Source: Bacteroidota bacterium (GTDB lineage Bacteria; Bacteroidota; Bacteroidia; Chitinophagales; Chitinophagaceae). Taken from it: a stretch of DNA of 64,000 bases. The notes under the pieces are model-generated. The model was not told where the DNA came from. It did no database searches and was given only the letters and a program-made list of their open reading frames with translations. The translations under genes were made by a program, and so were the position numbers. Numbering within the stretch: position 1 is the first letter of the stretch; each line of letters opens with the position of its first letter. This document shows, one piece after another, positions 8,637 through 59,630 of the stretch. Location: contig JAFDXE010000008.1 of assembly GCA_018268085.1 (NCBI GenBank), positions 62,001 to 126,000 on the forward strand, in the 5' to 3' direction.

Positions 8637-10346
8637 TTGGAAAAGAACTGGAATATATTAACTGCTGATGAAAAAATTGTTGATCAATTACAGCATGAAC
8701 TGGGCATCAATAAAACGATTTGCCGGATACTTTCGCAAAGAGCGATCAACAACTTTGAAGCAGCGAAAGATTACTTTCGTCCAAACCTGGACAAACTTCA
8801 TAGTCCATGGCTGATGAAAGACATGCGTAAAGCAGTTGAAAGAATCAACCAGGCGATCATCACCAGTGAAAAAATACTCGTTTTCGGAGACTATGATGTA
8901 GATGGGACTACTGCTGTTGCCTCCATGTTTCGGTTTCTTCAACAAATTCATCAACCTGCATTACTTGATTTTTATATCCCTCATCGTTATCGTGAAGGTT
9001 ACGGTGTTAGCAAAGCCGGAATCGATTTTGCATCTGCCAATGGATTCTCCCTTATCATTAGCCTCGATTGCGGAATCAAGTCGGCAGAACTTATCGCTTA
9101 TGCGAAAACGTTAGGTATTGATTTTATTGTGTGTGATCACCATTTACCGGGCGATGATATTCCCATTGCCGCCGCCATTTTAAATCCTAAACAAAAAGAT
9201 TGTGAATATCCGTATAAAGAATTATGCGGTTGCGGCGTGGGATTTAAACTTATGACTGCGCTGGCTGAATATTACTCGCTCAACAAATCGCATTATTACA
9301 AATACCTCGACCTGGTAGCGATCGCCATTGCGGCTGATATTGTACCCATGAATGGCGAAAACAGGATACTTGCCTATTTCGGCCTTGAAAAAATAAATAC
9401 GAACCCGTTGCCGGGTATTAAAGCACTGATTCAACTGGGCGGTATTAAACATAAACTTACCATAAGCAATGTTGTATTCGTAATTGCACCAAGAATAAAT
9501 GCGGCTGGAAGAATGGATGATGCCCGTAAGGCGGTACAACTTTTTATTGAAGAAGATGAAGTGAAATCATTTGAATTTGCTGAAATGCTTCATGCCGATA
9601 ACAGCGAAAGGAAAGAAGCCGACAGCAATATCACCGAAGAAGCATTGGCCATCATACGCTCAAGTTCTGAACTGGAGAAAAGACATACTTCTGTTGTTTA
9701 CCGGGAACATTGGCATAAAGGCGTGGTTGGTATTGTTGCCTCCAGGCTGATTGAACATTATTACCGGCCAACAGTGGTGCTTACTAAAAGCGGAGATGTT
9801 GTGGCTGGCAGTGCAAGAAGTGTAACGGGTTTTAATTTATACGAAGCCATTTACGCCTGCAGAGAACACCTGCTGGGATATGGAGGGCATTTTGCTGCAG
9901 CGGGATTATCTATGCTTCCTGAAAATGTGGAAGCCTTCAGCAACAAATTCAATGAAGTAGTAAGCAGCAGCATTGAAGAGCATTTACTCATTCCCGTAAT
10001 AACGATAGATGCGCCTGTCAGCTTCCCCGAAATAACACAATCCTTTTACAATATCTTACTGCAGATGGAACCTTTCGGACCGGAAAATATGCGGCCGGTT
10101 TTCATTGCACAAAAAGTAACCGATACAGGCTATTCAAGGATTGTAAAGGAGCTGCATATAAAATTTGCCGTGAGGCAAAACAATCAAACCCTTTCCGGTA
10201 TCGGGTTCAACCTGGCACATAAGTTCTATTTATTACAAATGAACAAGCCCGTCGACATTGTTTTCACACTGGATGAAAATGAATGGAACGGCGAAAAAAC
10301 CATCCAGTTAAAAGTGATTGATTTCAGGTTATCTGAAGAAAAATAA
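8637..10346 (+). CDS. recJ: Single-stranded-DNA-specific exonuclease RecJ
   Basis: 569 residues. The DHH phosphoesterase core has GDYDVDGTTA (residues 84-93), SLDCGI, and VCDHHLPGD (Asp167, His168, His169). The DHHA1 part has GGHFAAAG (from residue 416), followed by the OB-like C-terminal region. RecJ degrades 5' single-stranded DNA in recombination and mismatch repair, with Mn or Mg. The start is TTG, 2 bases after the previous stop. It is chosen because the EKNWNIL opening matches the family and the next in-frame ATG, near residue 60, would remove conserved sequence. Confidence 0.93.
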   Translation: MEKNWNILTADEKIVDQLQHELGINKTICRILSQRAINNFEAAKDYFRPNLDKLHSPWLMKDMRKAVERINQAIITSEKILVFGDYDVDGTTAVASMFRFLQQIHQPALLDFYIPHRYREGYGVSKAGIDFASANGFSLIISLDCGIKSAELIAYAKTLGIDFIVCDHHLPGDDIPIAAAILNPKQKDCEYPYKELCGCGVGFKLMTALAEYYSLNKSHYYKYLDLVAIAIAADIVPMNGENRILAYFGLEKINTNPLPGIKALIQLGGIKHKLTISNVVFVIAPRINAAGRMDDARKAVQLFIEEDEVKSFEFAEMLHADNSERKEADSNITEEALAIIRSSSELEKRHTSVVYREHWHKGVVGIVASRLIEHYYRPTVVLTKSGDVVAGSARSVTGFNLYEAIYACREHLLGYGGHFAAAGLSMLPENVEAFSNKFNEVVSSSIEEHLLIPVITIDAPVSFPEITQSFYNILLQMEPFGPENMRPVFIAQKVTDTGYSRIVKELHIKFAVRQNNQTLSGIGFNLAHKFYLLQMNKPVDIVFTLDENEWNGEKTIQLKVIDFRLSEEK

Positions 10347-10458: not shown

Positions 10459-12282
10459 TTAGACTTTTTCCTCCATTAATTCTACGCTCCGGCTGATAAA
10501 ACTGGTAAGACTGTTACCGGTTAGTAAACCCTGTGAGAGCAGGGCGAGGTCGGCAAGGTTCTTAACCAGCTTTTCCTGTTTATCGTTGTCTTTTTCTGCA
10601 AGTATATTTTTAAAAATGGGATGATTGCCGTTAACGGTTAAGTTTACTTCATCGGGCATGTTTGCGTACCAGGCACTCATTCCCCCTCCCATTGATGCCA
10701 TGTCTTTCATCCTGCGCATCAATTCCGGGCGGGTTGCTGTAACAGGTGCTGTTGTTTCACTCAAACCTTTTACCTCTATGTTCATGTGTAATCCGTCCTG
10801 CGGCCTGTTGAATAACGCTTTCAGTTTTTCCGCATCATCCTTACTCAACACACTTTCACCCGCTTCTGATTTATCTATCAGGTTATCCGTAATATCAGCA
10901 TCAACCCTGGTAAATTGTACATCCGGCCATTTCATTTCTACATTGTTTATAAAAGCAGCATCCACCAGTGTTTCCGCTTTTACAACCACATACCCTTTGG
11001 CTACAGCTTGTTGAATAAACACATCTTGTTGTACGGGGTTGGTAGTATATAAAATTACCTGTTTGCCTTCTTTATTTTTCTGTAATACTTCTGTTGCTTT
11101 CTTGTATTCTTCTACTGTATGAAATTTTCCGGCAGTGTCTTCCATGATGAAAAACCTGTTGGCCTTCTCCAGAAATTTATCGTCGGTCATCATACCATAT
11201 TTCACAAACAAACCAAGACTCTCCCATTTCTCTTCAAACGATGTACGGTCGCTGTTGAAGATCTCTTCCAGTTTATCCGCTACTTTTTTAGTGATGTGTG
11301 CATTGATCTTTTTTACATTCGGATCGCCCTGCAAATAACTGCGGCTAACGTTCAACGGTATATCGGGGCTATCGATCACGCCATGCAGTAACATCAGGAA
11401 TTCGGGAACAATATCTTTCACTTCATCCGTTACGAAAACCTGGTTGCTGTATAATTGTATCTTATCTTTTTGTATTTCGTAGCTCTGTTTGATTTTAGGG
11501 AAGTAAAGAATGCCGGTGAGGTTAAACGGATAATCAACATTTAGATGGATCCAGAACAACGGCGCTTCGCTGAACGGATACAGTTCTTTATAAAATTCCT
11601 GGTAATTTTCTGTAGTTAATTCCGAAGGCTTTTTAGTCCATGCAGGAACAGTATTGTTTATCTGTTTGTCTTCGAAAAAAATAGGAACCGGTAAAAACTT
11701 ACAGAATTTTTTCAGAATATCTTCAATTTTTGAAGGCTCTAAAAATTCCTGGCTTTCTTCATTCAGGTGTAATACAATATTGGTTCCTCTTTCTTCTTTA
11801 GTAGTTTCTTCCAGGGTAAACTCGGGGCTTCCATCGCATTCCCATCTAACAGCTTTTGCCCCTTCTTTAAAACTCTTTGTAAATACTTCTACCTTGTCGC
11901 TTACCATAAATGAACTGTAGAAACCCAATCCAAAGTGACCTATGATATTGGCTTCATTTTGCCCTTTATATTTTTGTAAAAATTCTTCTGCACCACTGAA
12001 TGCCACCTGGTTGAGGTATTTGTCAACTTCATCTGCGGTCATTCCAATACCCCTGTCTGCAATACTGAGTGTTTTATTGTCTTTATCAATTTTAATATCA
12101 ATCCTGAGTTCACCCAGTTCACCTTTGGCTTCTCCCAATGAAGAAAGCGTTTTCAACTTCTGTGTTGCATCTACCGCATTACTTACCAGTTCACGGATAA
12201 AAATGTCATGTTCACTGTAAAGGAATTTTTTGATGATCGGGAAGATATTCTCTGTTTGTACCCTGATATTACCTTTTTGCAT
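10459..12282 (-). CDS. htpG: Molecular chaperone HtpG (Hsp90)
   Basis: 607 residues, normal length for bacterial Hsp90. The GHKL ATPase domain shows ELVSNAVDA (Asn35), DRGIGMT and GHFGLGFYSSFM. The middle domain has SRSYLQGD and the C-terminal dimerisation domain ends in ELMEEKV. It is a cytoplasmic ATP-dependent chaperone. The upstream gap has a TACTTTTG element (12369-12376, minus strand) directly behind the terminator of the next operon. That could be its -7 box, but I see no convincing TTTG at -33. Confidence 0.96.
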   Translation of the reverse strand: MQKGNIRVQTENIFPIIKKFLYSEHDIFIRELVSNAVDATQKLKTLSSLGEAKGELGELRIDIKIDKDNKTLSIADRGIGMTADEVDKYLNQVAFSGAEEFLQKYKGQNEANIIGHFGLGFYSSFMVSDKVEVFTKSFKEGAKAVRWECDGSPEFTLEETTKEERGTNIVLHLNEESQEFLEPSKIEDILKKFCKFLPVPIFFEDKQINNTVPAWTKKPSELTTENYQEFYKELYPFSEAPLFWIHLNVDYPFNLTGILYFPKIKQSYEIQKDKIQLYSNQVFVTDEVKDIVPEFLMLLHGVIDSPDIPLNVSRSYLQGDPNVKKINAHITKKVADKLEEIFNSDRTSFEEKWESLGLFVKYGMMTDDKFLEKANRFFIMEDTAGKFHTVEEYKKATEVLQKNKEGKQVILYTTNPVQQDVFIQQAVAKGYVVVKAETLVDAAFINNVEMKWPDVQFTRVDADITDNLIDKSEAGESVLSKDDAEKLKALFNRPQDGLHMNIEVKGLSETTAPVTATRPELMRRMKDMASMGGGMSAWYANMPDEVNLTVNGNHPIFKNILAEKDNDKQEKLVKNLADLALLSQGLLTGNSLTSFISRSVELMEEKV

Positions 12283-12425: not shown

Positions 12426-14927
12426 TTATTGAACCATAAATGCTTTCTGTGCTTTGTATTCTGAATTAATCACCTGGAGGTTATACAATCCAATAGGCAG
12501 GTTGCCCGGGATCGTAAAATGATAATCCATAAAATTCACCTGAACGATAAAATCTTTCTGGTAAACCAATTGACCTACCACGTTATGAATCCTAACCGAA
12601 TAATGACCAGCCTTAAGGTTATTAACACTAAAGTGTAAGCTCTGGCCACGAATTATCGGGGTTGAATAAATGATCAAACCGTCACCAATGGATGATGTGG
12701 TAAATGAATTTTGCAGACCGTAAGCAATGCCACCACTGTTTTTAGCATACGCTTTATAGTAGTAGGTGGTATTCTGAATCAACCCGGTTAACTGGCTACT
12801 GAAAGCTGTACCGCTGAGATTGGTAGATGGAACCCTTGTTCCGGACCCGTCAACAAATCCATTGATGCCACTGTATTCAATACCGTATTCTGTTACAGGG
12901 CTGCAACCGATATCAGAGATAGATCCTGATGCGGTTACTTCGCTGTGATCAATAATCGTTGCATCTCCGGTTAATACCGAAGGCGCAGTGTTATTAGCTG
13001 AAGCACTTACAGGTACAGTATAGCTGCTAACGCCAGCACCTGAAACCTGGATATTGCCATTATATGATCCTATAGCCGGCGGTGTGAATTGCACATATAC
13101 AGTGGTTGAATACGTTCCAACCGGGTGTGTAATGGTAAGACTGTTTGTAAAATTTCCTGAACCTGAAGTTGAAAAAGTAAACCCATTTAACGGGCCAACT
13201 GTGATGTCGGTAGCATTCAGGTTTGTTCCTGAAAGTACAAAAGAATTAGGGCCTACTGAAGTTCCCACGCAAGCTGCACCAAAAGCAGAAAGCGCTGTTG
13301 CAGACAATGTTGCCGGAGGCGGTGCAGATGTATTGAATGACATCTGGATACCGTAAGTGGTACCACCTGCGTTTGTAGCGTAAGCTATATAGTAATATGT
13401 TGTTCCTGGTTGTAATCCTGCAATCCCTGCTGTAAATCCGGTTCCACTCAGGTTTGAAGATGACGCCTGTGTTCCAGTGCCAGGTGTAAATCCTGAGGTG
13501 GTGCTATATTCAAATCCATAAGCAGTAACAGGCGAGCAACCCTGTGAAGAAATGGTTCCGCTCAATGTAGCCGAATTTTGTGTAATGGCACTTGGCGACC
13601 CGCTGCTAACAGTTGGTGCTCCCGAAATACCCGAACCGGTTACATTGATCGTGGCTGCGGTTGTTAATCCGCCACCGCTAACATTTAAACTTCCGTCATA
13701 GGATTGAACTGCAGTAGGCGTAAAGCTAACAAATACATCTCCGGTATAAGCTCCCGCAGGGTGTGTAATATTTAATGAGGCAGTGAAAGGTCCTCCGGAA
13801 TTGGAAGAAAAAGTATAACCTGCCAATGGTCCAACAACCAGGTCTGCTGCTGTAAGATTGGTTCCATTAATGGTAAAGGAGTTTGGTCCTGCGGTTGTAT
13901 TCAAACATACCGGGCCGAAACCTGTTAAAGAAGCCGGACTAAACGTTACTGCCGGTCCTGCTGCTGTAATACCATTTCCACTAACCGCCACCGTTACTGC
14001 AACAGTTACTCCGCCACCAATGATGCTTACATTTCCGCTTTTCGGACCTACAGACTGAGGTGTAAAACGCACGTACACGGGGGTAGATGCAAGTGTAGCT
14101 GAAGTAAATGCAACTGTTGTACTTGCTCCCCAGGTCGAATTGTTATTTGAAACCTGGAAGTCTGTTGATGGTGCAGTAATTGTTATGTTGTCGGGGAACC
14201 CGGTAAGGTTTGCTCCCGAAATATTAAAACTTTGAGAAGTAGAATTTGTACCTACCACTACATTTCCAAAATCAACAACTGTTCCTGCTGTGATGCTTGG
14301 ATTTGCCGGACCTCCTGAACAAATAACCGCAGCAGTTGCACTGTTTCTGGGTGCGGCTGTTTGAACGGTGAAATCAGAACCATTATTATCCGTATCTGTA
14401 CATCCGTTGTTGTTTCTGAATCCCGCAGTTGTTACAGCCAATACTGCTGTTGCAGCCGGACCTTCGTAGCAATTTGCAGTTCCATATCCAACGGCATCTA
14501 TCACATTGGAAGCAGGTATGGGACAGCCTGTTAATGCAGTAGTGCCATTTACCAATGCCAGCTTACCACTTGTTCCGCTTAATGCGATAGTAGGATTGGC
14601 GAAATAATCAGGAGTAGGTAAAGCAGCTCCGTTTGCACCGGCAGCGCCCATTTGAATCAGGTAATAACCTCCTGCAGGAATTGATACTGCCGGTAACGGT
14701 GAAACGCCGGTCCAGAGTCCTGTATTGGTAGCAGACGAATATTGTATCGAAAGGCCGGATAAGCTTTGAGCACTGGTAGAAACATTGTGCAACTCAACAT
14801 AGTCTGCGTTGAGGGATGCACCTGTATTTCCTCCCGCTCCATAAAACTGGCTGATCACCAAAGTTGTGGATTGAGAAAAAGAAAACAGTGAACAAAGAAC
14901 CAGTAAAAGCGTAAAAATTTTTCTCAT
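12426..14927 (-). CDS. Secreted lamin-tail domain protein with T9SS type A sorting tail
   Basis: 833 residues with a signal peptide (ends SFSFSQ). Residues about 21-200 are a lamin-tail domain (LVISQFYGAGGN, ADYVELHNVS, VIDAVGYG), often found beside secreted nucleases. Residues 210-320 form an abnormal-spindle-like beta domain. Two copies of a two-module unit follow: 328-433 plus a fibronectin III-like module 437-533, then 541-643 plus 648-745. Residues about 755-833 are a type A sorting domain (HYSVRIHNVVGQLVYQ, LPIGLYNLQVI), so it should cross the outer membrane through T9SS. No catalytic domain is visible. It is the last gene of the TonB receptor operon and may be a surface adhesin or substrate-capture protein. 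Confidence 0.82.
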   Translation of the reverse strand: MRKIFTLLLVLCSLFSFSQSTTLVISQFYGAGGNTGASLNADYVELHNVSTSAQSLSGLSIQYSSATNTGLWTGVSPLPAVSIPAGGYYLIQMGAAGANGAALPTPDYFANPTIALSGTSGKLALVNGTTALTGCPIPASNVIDAVGYGTANCYEGPAATAVLAVTTAGFRNNNGCTDTDNNGSDFTVQTAAPRNSATAAVICSGGPANPSITAGTVVDFGNVVVGTNSTSQSFNISGANLTGFPDNITITAPSTDFQVSNNNSTWGASTTVAFTSATLASTPVYVRFTPQSVGPKSGNVSIIGGGVTVAVTVAVSGNGITAAGPAVTFSPASLTGFGPVCLNTTAGPNSFTINGTNLTAADLVVGPLAGYTFSSNSGGPFTASLNITHPAGAYTGDVFVSFTPTAVQSYDGSLNVSGGGLTTAATINVTGSGISGAPTVSSGSPSAITQNSATLSGTISSQGCSPVTAYGFEYSTTSGFTPGTGTQASSSNLSGTGFTAGIAGLQPGTTYYYIAYATNAGGTTYGIQMSFNTSAPPPATLSATALSAFGAACVGTSVGPNSFVLSGTNLNATDITVGPLNGFTFSTSGSGNFTNSLTITHPVGTYSTTVYVQFTPPAIGSYNGNIQVSGAGVSSYTVPVSASANNTAPSVLTGDATIIDHSEVTASGSISDIGCSPVTEYGIEYSGINGFVDGSGTRVPSTNLSGTAFSSQLTGLIQNTTYYYKAYAKNSGGIAYGLQNSFTTSSIGDGLIIYSTPIIRGQSLHFSVNNLKAGHYSVRIHNVVGQLVYQKDFIVQVNFMDYHFTIPGNLPIGLYNLQVINSEYKAQKAFMVQ
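12693..13946 (-). repeat. Two-copy internal repeat in the lamin-tail protein
   Basis: The coding segments 13329-13946 and 12693-13307 encode two copies of about 205 residues. Each is a beta module with GPNSF...GTNL and SFTP/QFTP motifs, followed by a fibronectin III-like module with CSPVT-YG-EYS and TTYYY-AYA-N. The copies have diverged, so this is an old domain duplication. Confidence 0.75.
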
Positions 14928-14967
14928 AAAAAGTTTTTAGAATGTTCAATTACCATAGATAACTGAA

Positions 14968-14998
14968 CAAAGAGCCATCGTTAGCGAATGGCTCTTTG
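14968..14998 (-). terminator. Hairpin between the DUF5689 and lamin-tail genes
   Basis: CAAAGAGCCAT (14968-14978) pairs with ATGGCTCTTTG (14988-14998). There is no long T-run after the stem on the minus strand, so it may only reduce expression of the last gene or stabilise the upstream mRNA. Confidence 0.6.
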
Positions 14999-15014
14999 AT
15001 AAGTTTCGTTCAAA

Positions 15015-16460
15015 TTAGTTTCCGATAATTTTGATATTATCGATTTCCCATGCGGAAGTATGATCACTGTTCGTTCCGGAAGGATCTGCTCCTTCGTTCT
15101 TAAATGCGATATATATTGTTCCGCTGATGCTACTCAGATCAATATTTCCTGAATTGGTATAGCTTGTTGGGAAAGCAGAGCCTGTTGTGGTTCCCGGTGA
15201 TAGTGTAACACCGGTAAAATCTGTCCAGGTAACACCTGCAGCCCATGGATTTCCTGTGCCGGTATAATTGGTAGAATACATTACTCTTAAGGTTGAAGAA
15301 ACATCAACACCTGTGCCTGTATAATTGCTCATCCTGAAATCCTGCTTTGTATCAAAAGTCAGTGTTTCAGTAGTAGTATTGTTCAGGTTTATACCCTTCG
15401 TAACCAGCCAGGTTGAAGTTGTTGGAATGTTAGCTCCAAACGGACTTACGTAAGCATATTTATTAGAGCTGAAAATTCTATTGGTATAAGTATATGATCC
15501 GGTGATCTCAGCAAGATTCTGCCATCCCGGGATGCTGATCTGGCTGTACGGTGAAGTTGTATTTGCAGGATAAGATTCGAAATTTTCGAACAACAGTGCG
15601 TTTGACGGAGCACTTCCGCAACGTGCGTTTACAAACTGAACGTCTGATGTATCACGCAACAACAATTGTTTGTCTACAGTGCTGGAAGTTGGTGTAGACC
15701 TGTATACAGTATAAATACTGGTGATGCTTCCGTTTCCTTTTGGTAAAGGCACTGCGGTAAAATTAGCATAAGCGCTGTTACGTACGATCAGTGAAGAACC
15801 GGAACAGTTTTTAATGGTACGGTTCTCTGTGTTCTTATAAGCTGAAGTATCAGAATATGTTTTAGAAGTATCGCCCGGGATGAATTCAAAATCCTGTAAC
15901 TGAACAAGTGCATTGATGTAACGGTCCTGCATACTTGTTCCGAGGTCAGATGGCGTTACAGCGATCGGAGCAACCGGGTTGTTAATTGAACCACCTACAA
16001 TGTGATTATCGATATCTGCCGGTAAAATTCCCTGAACTCCGGGAATGCCCTGGTCGTTCGTTAATACACCCAATTGCATGGTACCATGGTAATCGGTAAG
16101 GCACAGACCGTTACAACGAACCCAGATTTTACGTCCTACCGGGAAACTGCTGTACACGCTGCTGGCCTCAAGCATTATCTGCATAGCGCCTGTTGTATCC
16201 TGTATAAATATTTGTTTGTAAAGATTACCACTTTTATCGTTGGCGGTAACTACTCCTGAAATAATAATATCAGAATTGATAACATCATAAGCTCCTCCGG
16301 TGGTATGTATCGCTTTAAGGGTAGCAATGGTAGTATTGGCAACAACGTTCACATCGTCTGTTGGTCCCGGTGGCTGATCATAAGATTTCTTACAAGCACT
16401 CATCGTACCGATAGAGGCTAGGAATAAGATCCCGGAAAAAAGCTTCACAATTTTGTTCAT
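15015..16460 (-). CDS. DUF5689 lipoprotein with choice-of-anchor J-like C-terminal domain
   Basis: 481 residues. Lipoprotein signal (FLASIGTMSACKK, lipid on Cys23). Residues about 35-275 match DUF5689, with an OB-fold-like segment (IISGVVTANDKSGNLYKQIFIQD, then VGRKIWVRCNGLCL). Residues about 290-481 look like a choice-of-anchor J/MAM-like beta sandwich (LLFENFESYP, IPGWQNL, DHTSAWEIDNIKI). It lies 30 bases after the TonB receptor gene, the place where a SusD-like surface lipoprotein usually sits, but it is not SusD-like. It may bind the substrate for that receptor. The OB-like part would suit a nucleic acid ligand, which is inference. Confidence 0.78.
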   Translation of the reverse strand: MNKIVKLFSGILFLASIGTMSACKKSYDQPPGPTDDVNVVANTTIATLKAIHTTGGAYDVINSDIIISGVVTANDKSGNLYKQIFIQDTTGAMQIMLEASSVYSSFPVGRKIWVRCNGLCLTDYHGTMQLGVLTNDQGIPGVQGILPADIDNHIVGGSINNPVAPIAVTPSDLGTSMQDRYINALVQLQDFEFIPGDTSKTYSDTSAYKNTENRTIKNCSGSSLIVRNSAYANFTAVPLPKGNGSITSIYTVYRSTPTSSTVDKQLLLRDTSDVQFVNARCGSAPSNALLFENFESYPANTTSPYSQISIPGWQNLAEITGSYTYTNRIFSSNKYAYVSPFGANIPTTSTWLVTKGINLNNTTTETLTFDTKQDFRMSNYTGTGVDVSSTLRVMYSTNYTGTGNPWAAGVTWTDFTGVTLSPGTTTGSAFPTSYTNSGNIDLSSISGTIYIAFKNEGADPSGTNSDHTSAWEIDNIKIIGN

Positions 16461-16490
16461 AAATGTATTTTTAAAAAGTTTGTTTATTAA

Positions 16491-19070
16491 TTAGAATCTC
16501 AACGCTACGCCTGCAAGGAAATTGATGCCGTAAGCGTAGTAATATTTATCAGCAAATTTTTGAGGATCTCTTTCTGCAAAGTCAAAACGCAATTGTTCGT
16601 ATCCTCCGGAAACAATTGTTCTGTTATTCAGAATATTATTTACACCGGCAGTAAACACCAGGAAGGTTCTTTTCTTCAGGCTTTTGAACTTCTTGTTCAT
16701 CAACCATGAATATCCTATAAGTGCATCGAGTGTATGTTGTGCTTTTAACTGCGTTTGATCTGTGATACTGTGCCATTCTGCTGAATTCGGATCCAACCCA
16801 TCGGTTGCAGCTTTGGTTCTGCGAACAGGGCTGTATTGCAAATACATCTGGTCGAAATAATTAAAGGTTGCCGCTACCCACCAGAATTTTGGTGAACGGT
16901 AATTCAACCCGATTGAATAGGCCTGCTGTGGTGTTGCCACATAAAAATCTTTTGTGTAGATCACCTGGTTATTTACCACTGTTGCACTGTTATCTTCTGT
17001 TACAATTGCATTTTGTTCAGTGGTGTATTTAAATCTTCCCACAGATGCTGCTGCATTTAAGGTTAAGCCTTTGTAAAGAATTACTTCTGTTCCAAATTCT
17101 ACCCCTAAATGTTCTTTACCAATATTGTTAAGGGAATAATTTCCGAGTGTTCTTTGCAGATCATCATAGAAGGTAATGATATCCAAGCCATTTTTAAAGC
17201 GTGTATAGTATCCCGTTATGCGTGCTTTTACTTTTGGTGCTATGATCACGTAACCACCTTCAAATGAATATATGTGCTCAGATTTAATATCCGGCCTTAC
17301 TTCGTTACGGGTACGTGGAGACAGGAATGCGTTTTCAAAGAAAGGCGCTCTTGTTTCATAAGTACCGTTTACAAATAAATAGTTGTGAGGTGTAACCAGG
17401 TACGTTAAACCTGCTTTGAATGAATAATTGTAAAAATTCTGCTCATCAGATTTCCCCTGTGAGTTATCAGGGAATAAACCGTTACGTACATTTCCTACCC
17501 TGTAATATTTGGTATAGGTTTGAGCGCCGGCAACGAAGAAGTTGATTTTACGCAATTTTACATTTGCCTGGATCCATCCTGTTGCTCTTTGAATATTGAT
17601 GTTATAGTTGTAACCATATTTATCTCCTTCACGAACGATCCTGTTCGGATGGTTCAGGTCATTCTGGCCCGCGTTCGGATTAGCAGGAAAATCTCTTTCA
17701 GCAAACTGGTCAACATCTACCCAGAAATCGCCACCCAATAAATCCTTTACTTTTTTGTAATAATTATTAGACTGTGCTTCAAATGTTAAACCGGCAGTAA
17801 GATCCACATGACTATTTACCGCTGTATTGTAAGTGGTGTTGGCGTTAAAACGATTGGTATGTGTTACTCTTTCGCTCACTATATATAAAGACCTTTTTCC
17901 GGATACAGTGTTGCCTGCAATGCCATTTACATTTTGAATGGTTTCGTAGTTTGCGTAATTGGTGTTATACAGCGCATCCCAGTTAATCTGGCGCCTGTTA
18001 ACATTATTTTGAATGAGGCTCAGTACCTGTGCAGCCAAAACCGGGTCATCCTGGTAGCTTGGCAGGTAACGGTAATAATCCGGTCTTGGATCCGGAACAT
18101 TAAACCAATCTAAACCAGACGTACTGCGGAACCCGCTTGAAAATGAAGCTGCCGTAACGAGATTGGATTTTTCAGATATCTTCCAGTCGTGCGTAAGAAT
18201 CGCAAAAGGCTGTGAAGTTGTGCCCATTACTGCGTTTCTTTTCTTACCATTCTGGTAGCCCCAGTTTGGATTGTAATACGTATCTCCCGTTATGTTCCTT
18301 GATTCCTGCAATGTGGCAGCCTGGCGGCCCGTTGTGGTTGGTGTTGCAAACGCAACCAATGATAAAATATGACGGGAGTTGATTCTCTTATCTATACCTG
18401 CATAAAATGACCAGCCATCATAAGATGTACCATCAGCATATCCCTCTTCTGCCCACCTGCGTGAACCGGAAACACTGAAAGCCCATCCTTTTTTTGTCCA
18501 GCCCGTAGAACGGGTGAGCATAATCCTGTTATTATACGTACGATTTGAATACGCATAACTGATGGAAGTTTGTTTACGCTGCCTGAATGCACGTGTATCG
18601 ATATTGGTGATACCACCGATACCGCCAAAACCATAATTCACGCCTTGTAAACCAGGAGTGTACTGGCGATTACGCAATACATCATTCAAACCACCCCATA
18701 ATCCATAAGGTGTAAAACCATTATCCAGGTTTTCCATTGGCACACCATTCATGTAAGTGCTGAAATGATCTGCATCATAACCACGGATCCTGAAACGAAC
18801 TACACTGAAGTTGAATGAAGCTGCATTAATAAACGGATTTCTGCCTGAATTGATCTGGGAAGTCAGATTTTGAGCACTCCCATCCTGTTCGTCATTTTCA
18901 TCAAGGGAAACAACCGGGATATTATCAAGAACAGCATCTTTTGTTTCGTCGAGCGTAGTATCAACCGCCGCTGTTCGGGGATCTTTAACAGGCTCCTGCG
19001 CAAGGGCCAGATTTGCCGAAACCACTACGAGAAGCAAGCTGGCAAAAACCCTTAATTTGTGTTTAAGCAT
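16491..19070 (-). CDS. TonB-dependent outer membrane receptor
   Basis: 859 residues. Signal peptide ends at NLALAQ. An acidic linker (residues about 28-65) precedes a plug domain with FRIRGYDADHFSTYMNGVPMEN and YGFGGIGGITNIDTR, followed by a 22-strand barrel ending in a C-terminal Phe (ALRF). The N-terminal carboxypeptidase-like beta domain common in SusC proteins is absent, so it is closer to classical TonB receptors. It imports a ligand across the outer membrane using the proton gradient through TonB/ExbB/ExbD; an ExbB/ExbD pair lies at 52076-53217. It is first in an operon with the DUF5689 lipoprotein and the lamin-tail protein. A secreted S1/P1 nuclease is divergent. The ligand is unknown. 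Confidence 0.88.
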   Translation of the reverse strand: MLKHKLRVFASLLLVVVSANLALAQEPVKDPRTAAVDTTLDETKDAVLDNIPVVSLDENDEQDGSAQNLTSQINSGRNPFINAASFNFSVVRFRIRGYDADHFSTYMNGVPMENLDNGFTPYGLWGGLNDVLRNRQYTPGLQGVNYGFGGIGGITNIDTRAFRQRKQTSISYAYSNRTYNNRIMLTRSTGWTKKGWAFSVSGSRRWAEEGYADGTSYDGWSFYAGIDKRINSRHILSLVAFATPTTTGRQAATLQESRNITGDTYYNPNWGYQNGKKRNAVMGTTSQPFAILTHDWKISEKSNLVTAASFSSGFRSTSGLDWFNVPDPRPDYYRYLPSYQDDPVLAAQVLSLIQNNVNRRQINWDALYNTNYANYETIQNVNGIAGNTVSGKRSLYIVSERVTHTNRFNANTTYNTAVNSHVDLTAGLTFEAQSNNYYKKVKDLLGGDFWVDVDQFAERDFPANPNAGQNDLNHPNRIVREGDKYGYNYNINIQRATGWIQANVKLRKINFFVAGAQTYTKYYRVGNVRNGLFPDNSQGKSDEQNFYNYSFKAGLTYLVTPHNYLFVNGTYETRAPFFENAFLSPRTRNEVRPDIKSEHIYSFEGGYVIIAPKVKARITGYYTRFKNGLDIITFYDDLQRTLGNYSLNNIGKEHLGVEFGTEVILYKGLTLNAAASVGRFKYTTEQNAIVTEDNSATVVNNQVIYTKDFYVATPQQAYSIGLNYRSPKFWWVAATFNYFDQMYLQYSPVRRTKAATDGLDPNSAEWHSITDQTQLKAQHTLDALIGYSWLMNKKFKSLKKRTFLVFTAGVNNILNNRTIVSGGYEQLRFDFAERDPQKFADKYYYAYGINFLAGVALRF

Positions 19071-19242
19071 GATTAGAATTGATTAAAAAAAACGCAATTT
19101 AGTGCATTTATTGGTGCTAAAATGAAAAAATTGTTATTATAGTATGATATTTAAAATAAAAATTGTAGCTGCAAGCCATTCTTTTGAAATAACCGGACAA
19201 AATTCAACTAAATAATTTTTAGCTTTACTAAAATTTATACAC

Positions 19243-20040
19243 ATGAAAAGAAATGTACTATGTGTGGTACTTTGTTTAATACTCTCTGCATCAAACACAT
19301 GTATGGCCTGGGGCCGCAAAGGTCATGAACTGGTGGCAGAAATTGCATTTCGTTTCATGGATGATTCAACCAAAAAGATCGTTCAGCAATTTCTGGGAAA
19401 TATGACGATCCAGGAAGCTTCAACCTGGATGGATGATGAACGTTCCAACAGTTTCTACAATTATATGCGCACCTGGCATTATGTAAATGTTGAAAAAGGC
19501 GGCACCTATAAACCTACTTCTGAAAGGGATATAATTACAGTGCTGCACTCAGCTATAAAGGAAATTAAAAACTATAAAAATGTTTCAAAGAAGGATATCA
19601 GGCGTGACCTGCTACTCATCTTTCACCTGGTAGGCGACCTGCACCAGCCTTTGCATGTTGGATATGGGAGCGACAAAGGTGGCAATGATATTGATGTTCA
19701 TTCGCCCGCCATGTCGGGAAATTTGCATGCCATCTGGGATTCGCAAATTATCGATGCCAAAGGAATCACTATCGACTCCTGCATGAAAATGCTACCGTTT
19801 CTTTCTGATATGGATATTAAACAGGTTCAAAAGATAGATGTGCTGAGCTGGATGAACCAGTCACGCAGCCACCTGGAAGGCGTGTACAATTTTAAAAACA
19901 ATGTACTTCCGGACGACTACCTTTCCGTTAATGTTCCCATTATTGAAAAACAACTGTTGATTGGCGGTATGCGACTGGCGAGTGTACTCAATGATGCTTT
20001 CGGTCCCGGGGCGATGGTGATCATGCCCTCCAAATCATAG
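19243..20040 (+). CDS. Secreted S1/P1-type nuclease
   Basis: 265 residues. Signal peptide cleavage after CMA would leave Trp23 as the first mature residue, as required in S1/P1 nucleases, where the N-terminal Trp and a nearby His (WGRKGHE) bind zinc. Further metal-ligand motifs are STWMDDERS, TWHYVNV, LVGDLHQPLHVG, GGNDIDVH and NLHAIWDSQII. The family uses three zinc ions to cleave single-stranded DNA and RNA and may remove 3' phosphates. It should act in the periplasm or outside the cell. It is divergent from the TonB receptor operon across 172 bases, which suggests joint use in nucleic acid scavenging. Confidence 0.9.
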   Translation: MKRNVLCVVLCLILSASNTCMAWGRKGHELVAEIAFRFMDDSTKKIVQQFLGNMTIQEASTWMDDERSNSFYNYMRTWHYVNVEKGGTYKPTSERDIITVLHSAIKEIKNYKNVSKKDIRRDLLLIFHLVGDLHQPLHVGYGSDKGGNDIDVHSPAMSGNLHAIWDSQIIDAKGITIDSCMKMLPFLSDMDIKQVQKIDVLSWMNQSRSHLEGVYNFKNNVLPDDYLSVNVPIIEKQLLIGGMRLASVLNDAFGPGAMVIMPSKS

Positions 20041-20272: not shown

Positions 20273-21010
20273 TTATTCTACAATCGTCACATCATCAGGG
20301 TGCAATAGCGGTATATTTTTAAAACGCAAAATGATATTACCGGTTGTTACCACATCTTTCTGGCAATAAACAGCTATGCGTTTGAGATTTTTTTCACGTT
20401 CTTCTGCTGTAGCATTCCAATAAAGATCCCCTACCATACTACCATCAATATCATCTTTGGAAGATGGAACGCCCATCGCAACTGCCAGTAATTTCAATGA
20501 AGTAAAATTTTTATAATCACCGAACCTCCAGTATTGAAATGTATCTACAATGTTTGTTTCCCAGGGCTTCATATTCTGGAAATCGAGAAAGTGCGGAATA
20601 GGCATATTGTTAATGAGCAGGCGCCGGCAAATGAACGGGATATCAAACTCTTTGATATTATGCCCGGCAAAACACCATTTATTATTGATGCTTTCAATTT
20701 TAGCAATGGTATTTAAAAATTCCTGTAATATTTTTTTCTCATCATCACCGTAAAAAGATTTGATGCGCATGTGCAGGGTAGTTTCTTTATTGAAATAGCC
20801 GATGCTGATACAAATAATCTTTGCAAATTCTGCCATTACACCTGCACGTACAGGATAAAATTCTGCCGGCGTAATTCCCTCGGGCACAACCCTGTTTACT
20901 TTTTCTTCCCACAATTGCTTCCAGTCATCATTCATCGCATCAAACGAAGGAAATGCAGACGCTGTTTCAATATCTATTACAATTAAATTTTCAGGCCGGA
21001 TCTGTTGCAT
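20273..21010 (-). CDS. PolB-like 3'-5' exonuclease
   Basis: 245 residues from the ATG chosen here. A TTG start 13 codons earlier is possible but lies almost against the upstream terminator. The DEDD exonuclease motifs are all present: VIDIETA (Exo I, about residue 13), GHNIKEFDIPF (Exo II) and YCQKDVVTT (Exo III, the YxxxD form). This matches the predicted PolB-like 3'-5' exonuclease family (PF10108), a free-standing proofreading-type domain without a polymerase. It would remove nucleotides from 3' ends with two metal ions in the cytoplasm. No partner gene is adjacent. Confidence 0.85.
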   Translation of the reverse strand: MQQIRPENLIVIDIETASAFPSFDAMNDDWKQLWEEKVNRVVPEGITPAEFYPVRAGVMAEFAKIICISIGYFNKETTLHMRIKSFYGDDEKKILQEFLNTIAKIESINNKWCFAGHNIKEFDIPFICRRLLINNMPIPHFLDFQNMKPWETNIVDTFQYWRFGDYKNFTSLKLLAVAMGVPSSKDDIDGSMVGDLYWNATAEEREKNLKRIAVYCQKDVVTTGNIILRFKNIPLLHPDDVTIVE

Positions 21011-21047
21011 ATCGCATTTATTTTTTTCAAAGTACAATTTCTTATTC

Positions 21048-21072
21048 AAAAAAAATCCCGCAAAAAGCGGGA
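21048..21072 (-). terminator. Intrinsic terminator after the outer membrane protein gene
   Basis: TCCCGC (21056-21061) pairs with GCGGGA (21067-21072) around a 5-base loop, followed by eight T on the minus strand. The stem has the same core sequence as the one before coaBC. Confidence 0.85.
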
Positions 21073-58400: not shown

Positions 58401-59630
58401 ATGATACGAACTGCAATTCTTATATGGATTTTTGGTGTGATATCCACTTGTATCTGCAAAGCACAGGTGATCACCGGTGCCGAACGGATACCAGTGTACT
58501 TACCGATGCTGGAAAATAAACGTGTTGGCATCTTTGCCAATCAAACAAGCGTAATTGCACATACACATATCGTTGATACTTTGCTGAAAAGGGGTATCAA
58601 CATTGTAAAGATCTTCAGCCCGGAGCACGGCTTCAGGGGTACGGCTGATGCAGGCGCCCATGTTGGTAATTCAACTGATAAAAAAACAGGTGTACCCATT
58701 GTTAGTTTATATGGCGACCATAAAAAACCAACTTTGGAAGATGTGAAAGACCTGGATGTGCTCGTGTATGATATCCAGGATGTAGGCGTTCGCTTTTATA
58801 CTTATATATCCTCGCTGCAATATTTCCTGGAAGCTGCCATTGAATTGCATAAACCATTGCTGATACTTGACCGGCCGAACCCGAATGGATTTTATGTAGA
58901 TGGCCCTGTACTCGATCCGAAATTTAAAAGTTTTGTTGGCATGCAACCCGTACCGGTAGTGTATGGAATGACGATTGGCGAGTATGCTTTAATGTTAGCT
59001 GGTGAAAACTGGTTATCGCCGGAGGCAAACCGGATAAATACATATAATACATCTACGCAGCCAACAGCCGACACGCCATTTCATGTACAGGTGATCAAAT
59101 GCAGGAATTATGATCATAACACGAAATATACTTTACCGGTAAACCCTTCACCTAATTTAAAAGAGATGCAGGCTGTGTACCTGTATCCTTCTACCTGTTT
59201 TTTTGAAGGAACGGTAGTAAGCGAAGGACGGGGTACAGATAAACCCTTTGAAATATTCGGGCATCCTTCCCTGCCTAAAAATCTGTATTCATTTACGCCT
59301 AAACCCAATGAAGGATCAAAAAGCAGTAAGTGTTTTTACCAGCAATGTTATGGCTGGAATGTTTCGGGAACAACCAGTGAAGTACTGGCTGCACTGGATG
59401 GAAAGATCCGGTTAAGTTACCTGCTGAATGCGTACAAATTATTTCCCGGTAAAGACAGTTTCTTTTTAAAAAATAATTTCTTCCATTCACTCGCCGGAAA
59501 TGATTTGCTGATGAAACAGGTGAAGGAAAACATGACGGAGGAACAAATCCGGAAAAGCTGGCAAACTGATCTCGAAAAATTTAAAGCCATTCGTAAAAAG
59601 TATTTATTGTATACTGATTTTGAAGACTAG
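58401..59630 (+). CDS. DUF1343 protein, NamZ-type exo-beta-N-acetylmuramidase
   Basis: 409 residues with a signal peptide (ILIWIFGVISTCICKAQ). The DUF1343/NamZ signature is clear: RVGIFANQTSVIAHTHIVDTL, IFSPEHGFRGTADAGAHVGN, LYGDHKKPTLEDVKDLDVLVYDIQDVGVRFYTYISSL and LDRPNPN. NamZ enzymes remove N-acetylmuramic acid from non-reducing ends of peptidoglycan fragments. The signal peptide suits cell-wall recycling or scavenging in the periplasm. The assignment to muramidase activity is by family. Confidence 0.88.
   Translation: MIRTAILIWIFGVISTCICKAQVITGAERIPVYLPMLENKRVGIFANQTSVIAHTHIVDTLLKRGINIVKIFSPEHGFRGTADAGAHVGNSTDKKTGVPIVSLYGDHKKPTLEDVKDLDVLVYDIQDVGVRFYTYISSLQYFLEAAIELHKPLLILDRPNPNGFYVDGPVLDPKFKSFVGMQPVPVVYGMTIGEYALMLAGENWLSPEANRINTYNTSTQPTADTPFHVQVIKCRNYDHNTKYTLPVNPSPNLKEMQAVYLYPSTCFFEGTVVSEGRGTDKPFEIFGHPSLPKNLYSFTPKPNEGSKSSKCFYQQCYGWNVSGTTSEVLAALDGKIRLSYLLNAYKLFPGKDSFFLKNNFFHSLAGNDLLMKQVKENMTEEQIRKSWQTDLEKFKAIRKKYLLYTDFED

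Follow-up and report, generated by a model that had tools for sequence, protein, structure and literature searches.

How does DNA cross the outer membrane of Bacteroidota without recognizable standard uptake machinery? Two adjacent genes that bear on this question lie in the 64,000-nucleotide stretch analyzed here (the window; contig JAFDXE010000008.1, positions 62,001 to 126,000), which comes from a member of the Chitinophagaceae. The first encodes an 859-amino-acid (aa) TonB-dependent receptor (16491-19070, minus strand), a candidate outer-membrane DNA channel, and the second a 481-aa DUF5689 lipoprotein (15015-16460, minus strand). They are followed by a gene for a secreted 833-aa lamin-tail/choice-of-anchor-D/fn3 protein (12426-14927, minus strand) and stand divergent from a gene for a secreted 265-aa S1/P1 nuclease with a Sec signal peptide (19243-20040, plus strand). 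A first-pass annotation had proposed that the four genes scavenge extracellular nucleic acid; its description of the genes was accurate, with every open reading frame (ORF) and strand where it had placed them and a 30-bp gap between receptor and lipoprotein. Our analysis makes it likely, though well short of certain, that the receptor and lipoprotein carry out the outer-membrane step in a DNA-uptake machine that is powered through TonB and serves natural transformation.

A pair essential for transformation in Riemerella anatipestifer

A full-text literature search for DUF5689 led to a transposon screen of natural transformation in R. anatipestifer (PMC8459023). In that species, an outer-membrane barrel protein (RA0C_RS04915) and a DUF5689 plus choice-of-anchor J protein (RA0C_RS04920) are encoded side by side in one operon. 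Markerless deletion of either gene yielded no transformants, so that each is essential, with frequencies below detection like those of ComEC and DprA insertions. Transformation also needs ComEC, DprA, ComF, RecA, an HHH protein and a DUF1343 protein (RA0C_RS09020), the last being essential as well. The same study calls the pair widespread in Flavobacteriaceae, with the receptor found only there, and ascribes the conversion of double-stranded DNA (dsDNA) to single-stranded DNA (ssDNA) to "an unidentified protein".

A profile scan of contigs returned R. anatipestifer CCUG25054 (locus L223) and R. columbina (L187), another transformable species (PMC7965970). The L223 order is comEC, a small ORF, a carboxyltransferase and an EEP nuclease, divergent from the receptor and DUF5689 genes. 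This matches the published positions of RS04895 (ComEC), RS04915 (receptor) and RS04920 (DUF5689), and RS04910 should therefore be the EEP nuclease by position. Just past DUF5689 (L223:15661-21103) lie ordinary-looking type II CRISPR genes, comprising a 1400-aa Cas9-sized ORF and cas1- and cas2-like ORFs.

When the window receptor was searched against the whole L223 genome, the top match was the receptor of the comEC locus (E 2.7e-111), with the second at 3e-24, and the reverse search returned the window receptor as its single match (E 5.5e-112). We equated the receptor of strain CCUG25054 with RS04915 through gene order and description; by this reciprocal best match, the window receptor is an orthologue of RA0C_RS04915 at the sequence level, with 31-35% identity to the R. 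anatipestifer protein. The lipoproteins of the window and L223 align over their full length at 27% identity, making the window lipoprotein the counterpart of RA0C_RS04920.

The window genome also holds further parts of the Riemerella-type machinery, encoding ComEC, two DprA-family genes, a membrane-anchored protein with two HHH motifs and a NamZ/DUF1343 protein, together with an EEP nuclease. The NamZ (DUF1343) gene (58401-59630, plus strand; PF07075 250 bits, PF20732 112 bits) belongs to the same family as RA0C_RS09020 and lies ~38 kb from the pair. We regard it as a genome-level component outside the operon, whose linkage to the pair may be due to chance.

Conservation of the pair

Across 392 Bacteroidota genomes, strong matches to DUF5689 (E < 1e-30) and to the receptor (E < 1e-50) occurred in an identical set of 66 genomes, never apart (Fisher p 1e-76, which is not a true probability because the genomes are related). 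Absences were shared too: within the family of the window, several genomes lacked both. Neighborhoods were sampled around 40 strong DUF5689 loci picked by score, 39 loci with a receptor from the family of the window and 80 loci mainly from Weeksellaceae, giving 156 loci with a receptor. DUF5689 directly followed the receptor in 154 of these. In 141 there was an EEP homologue no more than three genes upstream or four genes downstream of the receptor, in 137 of them as the divergent neighbor. Weeksellaceae are overrepresented in this tally; with the 80 loci mainly from that family removed, the counts were 74/76 for DUF5689 and 62/76 for EEP, several of the misses being at contig ends. At three loci (L037, L042 and L055) the two genes were not adjacent, and the receptor was elsewhere in the same genome. 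Together, the 66/66 co-occurrence and the 154/156 adjacency place the pairing far beyond chance. A test proposed in the first-pass annotation, whether DUF5689 keeps company with nucleases in other genomes, thus came out positive, though the nuclease is of another family.

The pair in R. anatipestifer was already known (PMC8459023). What is new, within the literature searched, is its strict co-occurrence and its presence in further families beyond Flavobacteriaceae, including the window's own, a family other than those of the sampled Flavobacteriaceae-type and Weeksellaceae genomes.

Two receptor matches, in G222 (C19:401591-404093, in separate frames) and G328 (C53:211571-214135), were split into two pieces, possibly by frameshift, decay or sequencing error. 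In FastTree trees, the window receptor grouped weakly with those of L123 and L128.

Structure of the receptor and lipoprotein

The receptor matched the Pfam Plug domain only marginally (E 0.0012), and its predicted structure (mean pLDDT 88) was a clear TonB-dependent plug-and-barrel, with a VIA Z of 28.5 to BtuB. The closest solved folds were BtuB, FecA, FhuA and PqqU; SusC was absent from the top 50 PDB matches, although the structure may still be SusC-like. Pfam and NCBIfam searches at E 0.001 gave no SusC match for the receptor and no SusD match for the lipoprotein. The suggestion that the lipoprotein takes the place of SusD therefore holds for its position and not for its domains.

In the lipoprotein, DUF5689 spans residues 41-274 (Pfam E 5e-59), the lipobox cysteine C23 is invariant among 45 orthologues, and residues 284-481 of the model (pLDDT 89) form a cleaved-adhesin/Eph-type jellyroll (VIA Z 13-14). 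A full-length match to the M949_1556 lipoprotein (NCBIfam NF052645) reached 211.8 bits, under the curated cut-off of 475, placing the protein outside that subfamily. The VIA matches listed lay within residues 284-481. A Foldseek search with the whole model matched five HIN-200 chains (E 2e-5 to 8e-4) at low TM-scores of 0.14-0.40, among them one dsDNA complex and one ssDNA complex. A tRNA_anti-codon OB match appeared in 2 of the 45 orthologues (best E 0.0036). The OB-like segment anticipated in the first-pass annotation thus receives weak backing from the tandem OB folds of HIN-200, and the models hint at a tandem-OB-like DUF5689 domain, which is not proof of DNA binding.

A Bacillus subtilis control genome also gave a DUF5689 match, presumably from YhcR, an OB-containing nuclease. 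Orthologous lipoproteins are often ~650-750 aa long (L044, L051, L058, L107 and others), several with two tandem DUF5689 domains.

The third gene proved far less constant. Its lamin-tail domain (LTD) was recognized by Pfam (E 3e-10), and its C-terminal ~85 aa resemble a type IX secretion system sorting domain by eye, in a region with no Pfam or NCBIfam match. Related proteins follow DUF5689 in only 3 of the 156 loci (L045, L110 and L111); the LTD is common only to the L111 relative, and the other two share repeats. The lamin-tail gene is thus lineage-specific and no general part of the locus, and its product would be an optional surface accessory. At another locus, directly after the receptor, a single lipoprotein (L036:9570-10946) fuses DUF5689 with an LTD.

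The nuclease slot

The slot protein belongs to the S1/P1 family: the Pfam match (172 bits, E 2.4e-50) is above the family cut-off, and the PDB matches are the S1/P1 nucleases 3w52, 8qjl and 5fb9. The zinc ligands were indeed intact as first described, with all nine positions kept by motif-based assignment (W23, H28, D65, H79, H128, D132, H138, H162 and D166), W23 directly following the predicted signal peptide.

In most relatives, the slot that this gene occupies is held by an EEP nuclease. The slot EEP proteins of L058 and L223, the two scanned, belong to PF19580; that of L058 starts with a signal peptide and by eye keeps the motifs EVEN, NHWPSR, GDLNDDP and SDHFP. We rejected S1/P1 as a generally conserved partner, as it was near the receptor in 1 of the 156 loci, and by coordinates, within the sampled window family, only the window genome and G514 had S1/P1 within 10 kb of the receptor. 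The single EEP homologue of the window genome is on contig C11, 42% identical to the L058 EEP, and grouped with the EEPs of L139 and L140 (support 98). The trees do not show a simple move of EEP from the slot to C11, as EEP and receptor group with different lineages, and the C11 copy possibly came from transfer or paralogy. From these comparisons, S1/P1 here is a local, lineage-specific substitution for EEP.

Whether the substitution is functional is close to an even question. We give slightly less than even weight to the explanation that S1/P1 is an unrelated bystander left beside the receptor after EEP was lost or moved, so that only receptor and lipoprotein are linked, an explanation compatible with DNA uptake by the pair. 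It is favored by the scarcity of S1/P1 at the locus: apart from the window, L124 is the one lineage with S1/P1 close to the receptor, and other genomes carry the gene at an unconnected site or lack it. At L124, from another genus of the window's family, the receptor is divergent from EEP, a secreted protein and S1/P1 oriented as in the window, and loss of EEP and the intervening gene from such an order would give the window order. Against it, what fills the nuclease slot in the window is again a secreted nuclease, and G514, whose S1/P1 is the second-closest homologue found in the family (48% identity), also has it at the locus.

A more ambitious proposal is that receptor, DUF5689 protein and slot nuclease make up a TonB-driven DNA-import machine across the class Bacteroidia, the slot nuclease making transforming ssDNA from imported dsDNA. 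We consider this tentative, with the odds against it. The conserved nuclease would nonetheless be a candidate for the dsDNA-to-ssDNA step in R. anatipestifer; the EEP neighbor is not discussed in the available sections of PMC8459023. An S1/P1-for-EEP swap would offer a natural experiment on the requirements of the slot. We regard the conserved divergent EEP slot and the S1/P1 substitution as new, with the proviso that they may have been described in preprints or in the many journals outside our literature coverage. Within the literature searched, which left out preprints and most subscription journals, no later papers on RS04915 were found.

A model for DNA uptake and its alternatives

In the model that we favor, the surface lipoprotein, seated on the receptor in the manner of SusD or BtuG, would use its tandem OB-like DUF5689 domain to bind DNA outside the cell. 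The plug would then be opened by TonB and the proton motive force, letting DNA pass through the receptor into the periplasm. A nuclease of the divergent slot, periplasmic or secreted, would trim the DNA or remove one strand; this nuclease would be S1/P1 in the window, whose genome also retains an EEP copy unlinked to the locus, and EEP in most relatives. Finally, the membrane-anchored HHH protein, ComEC and DprA, encoded elsewhere in the genome, would carry ssDNA inward. For the window organism, we infer this function from R. anatipestifer genetics.

Nucleic-acid uptake by the pair is well supported. In favor of TonB powering, mutations in tonBA and tonBB lower R. anatipestifer transformation, that in tonBA without an iron defect (PMC8383284). 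The idea of capture, cutting and uptake in the first-pass annotation therefore survives in part: the pair is essential in R. anatipestifer and a secreted nuclease neighbor is conserved, although that nuclease is nearly always EEP and S1/P1 is local.

Several observations weigh against DNA uptake for transformation. At 31-35% receptor identity, the substrate could differ from that in R. anatipestifer, and the HIN-200 fold matches carry low TM-scores (0.14-0.40). Classically, S1/P1 enzymes favor RNA and single strands, which suits the conversion of dsDNA poorly. Flavobacterium johnsoniae has the homologues and yet gave no transformation in the conditions used, and the EEP gene (RS04910 by position) is absent from the transformation genes of the 3,000-mutant screen (PMC8459023), a screen that was probably not saturating. 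For the tonBA effect, the authors suggest impaired nutrient transport (PMC8383284).

Nutritional scavenging, the purpose first proposed, is now a rival that we judge improbable. Here the secreted nuclease would digest DNA or RNA, the pair would import oligonucleotides as a source of phosphorus, nitrogen or nucleosides, and transformation in Riemerella would be a by-product. The conserved neighbor is a secreted nuclease, extracellular nucleases are nutritional elsewhere (PMC6085458), and phosphate influences R. anatipestifer transformation, all of which suits this explanation. The known phenotype of the pair, on the other hand, is loss of transformation, and by inspection nucleoside or phosphate transporters, phosphatases and nucleosidases did not recur among its immediate neighbors. 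Our search found no literature on DNA as a nutrient taken up through TonB receptors. DNA import for transformation fits better because the published phenotype is transformation and not growth on DNA.

It is quite unlikely that the receptor imports another ligand (a metal chelate, cofactor or peptide) that transformation needs indirectly, for energy or competence: the closest folds (BtuB, FecA, FhuA and PqqU) and the lowering of R. anatipestifer transformation by iron limitation point that way, but the fold is common to all TonB receptors and so says little about ligand, the deletions are below detection as ComEC and DprA insertions are, and the nuclease neighbor and OB-like partner speak against it.

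If the pair imports DNA for transformation, its presence beyond Flavobacteriaceae and Weeksellaceae means that many species not so far known as transformable should be competent, which would bear on gene exchange and on genetic tools.

Layout and surrounding genes

The 30-bp gap between receptor and lipoprotein and the 87-bp gap between lipoprotein and lamin-tail gene fit a minus-strand operon of these three genes in that order. The divergent receptor and S1/P1 starts are separated by a 172-bp intergenic region (19071-19242), in which the strict Bacteroidota promoter pattern TTTG-N17-22-TANNTTTG was not found. Rfam and tRNA scans of the window gave no matches.

Beyond the lamin-tail gene, RecJ (8637-10346, plus strand) is convergent with HtpG (10459-12282, minus strand). 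In 9 of 76 other loci the gene directly after DUF5689 is HtpG, and in L043 and L053 RecJ lies beyond HtpG; receptor, DUF5689, HtpG and RecJ may thus be an old arrangement into which the lamin-tail gene was inserted in the window. On the other side, adjoining the S1/P1 gene on the opposite strand, is a predicted 3'-5' exonuclease (DNA_pol_B_exo2; 20273-21049, minus strand), probably cytoplasmic.

Comparison with known systems

The window nuclease is like the S1/P1 nucleases 3w52, 8qjl and 5fb9 in its domain match, ligand residues and mature N-terminal Trp, and unlike them its gene stands beside a putative DNA-uptake pair.

The extracellular nucleases ExeM and Xds combine LTD, OB and EEP in one chain, and without the OB region activity is abolished or nearly so (PMC6085458, PMC6746945). 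The same kinds of domain, LTD, OB-fold region and EEP nuclease, recur in our loci; in the window the parts are encoded separately and linked to a TonB receptor, with S1/P1 in the slot. These chains and the DUF5689-LTD fusion of L036 tie DUF5689, LTD and EEP to nucleic acid.

As in SusC/SusD and BtuB/BtuG, a TonB receptor and a surface-type lipoprotein are encoded together. Unlike SusC/SusD, the window pair has neither a SusD domain nor a SusC family match, and its lipoprotein consists of an OB-like part and a jellyroll.

The closest counterpart is RS04915/RS04920 of R. anatipestifer. The window differs in a receptor without the N-terminal CarboxypepD_reg domain, in S1/P1 and not EEP in the slot, in its extra lamin-tail gene and in having no comEC nearby. 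Shared by both are an orthologous receptor, a DUF5689 lipoprotein with a jellyroll directly downstream on the same strand and a divergent secreted nuclease gene; the window genome has a single DUF5689 gene.

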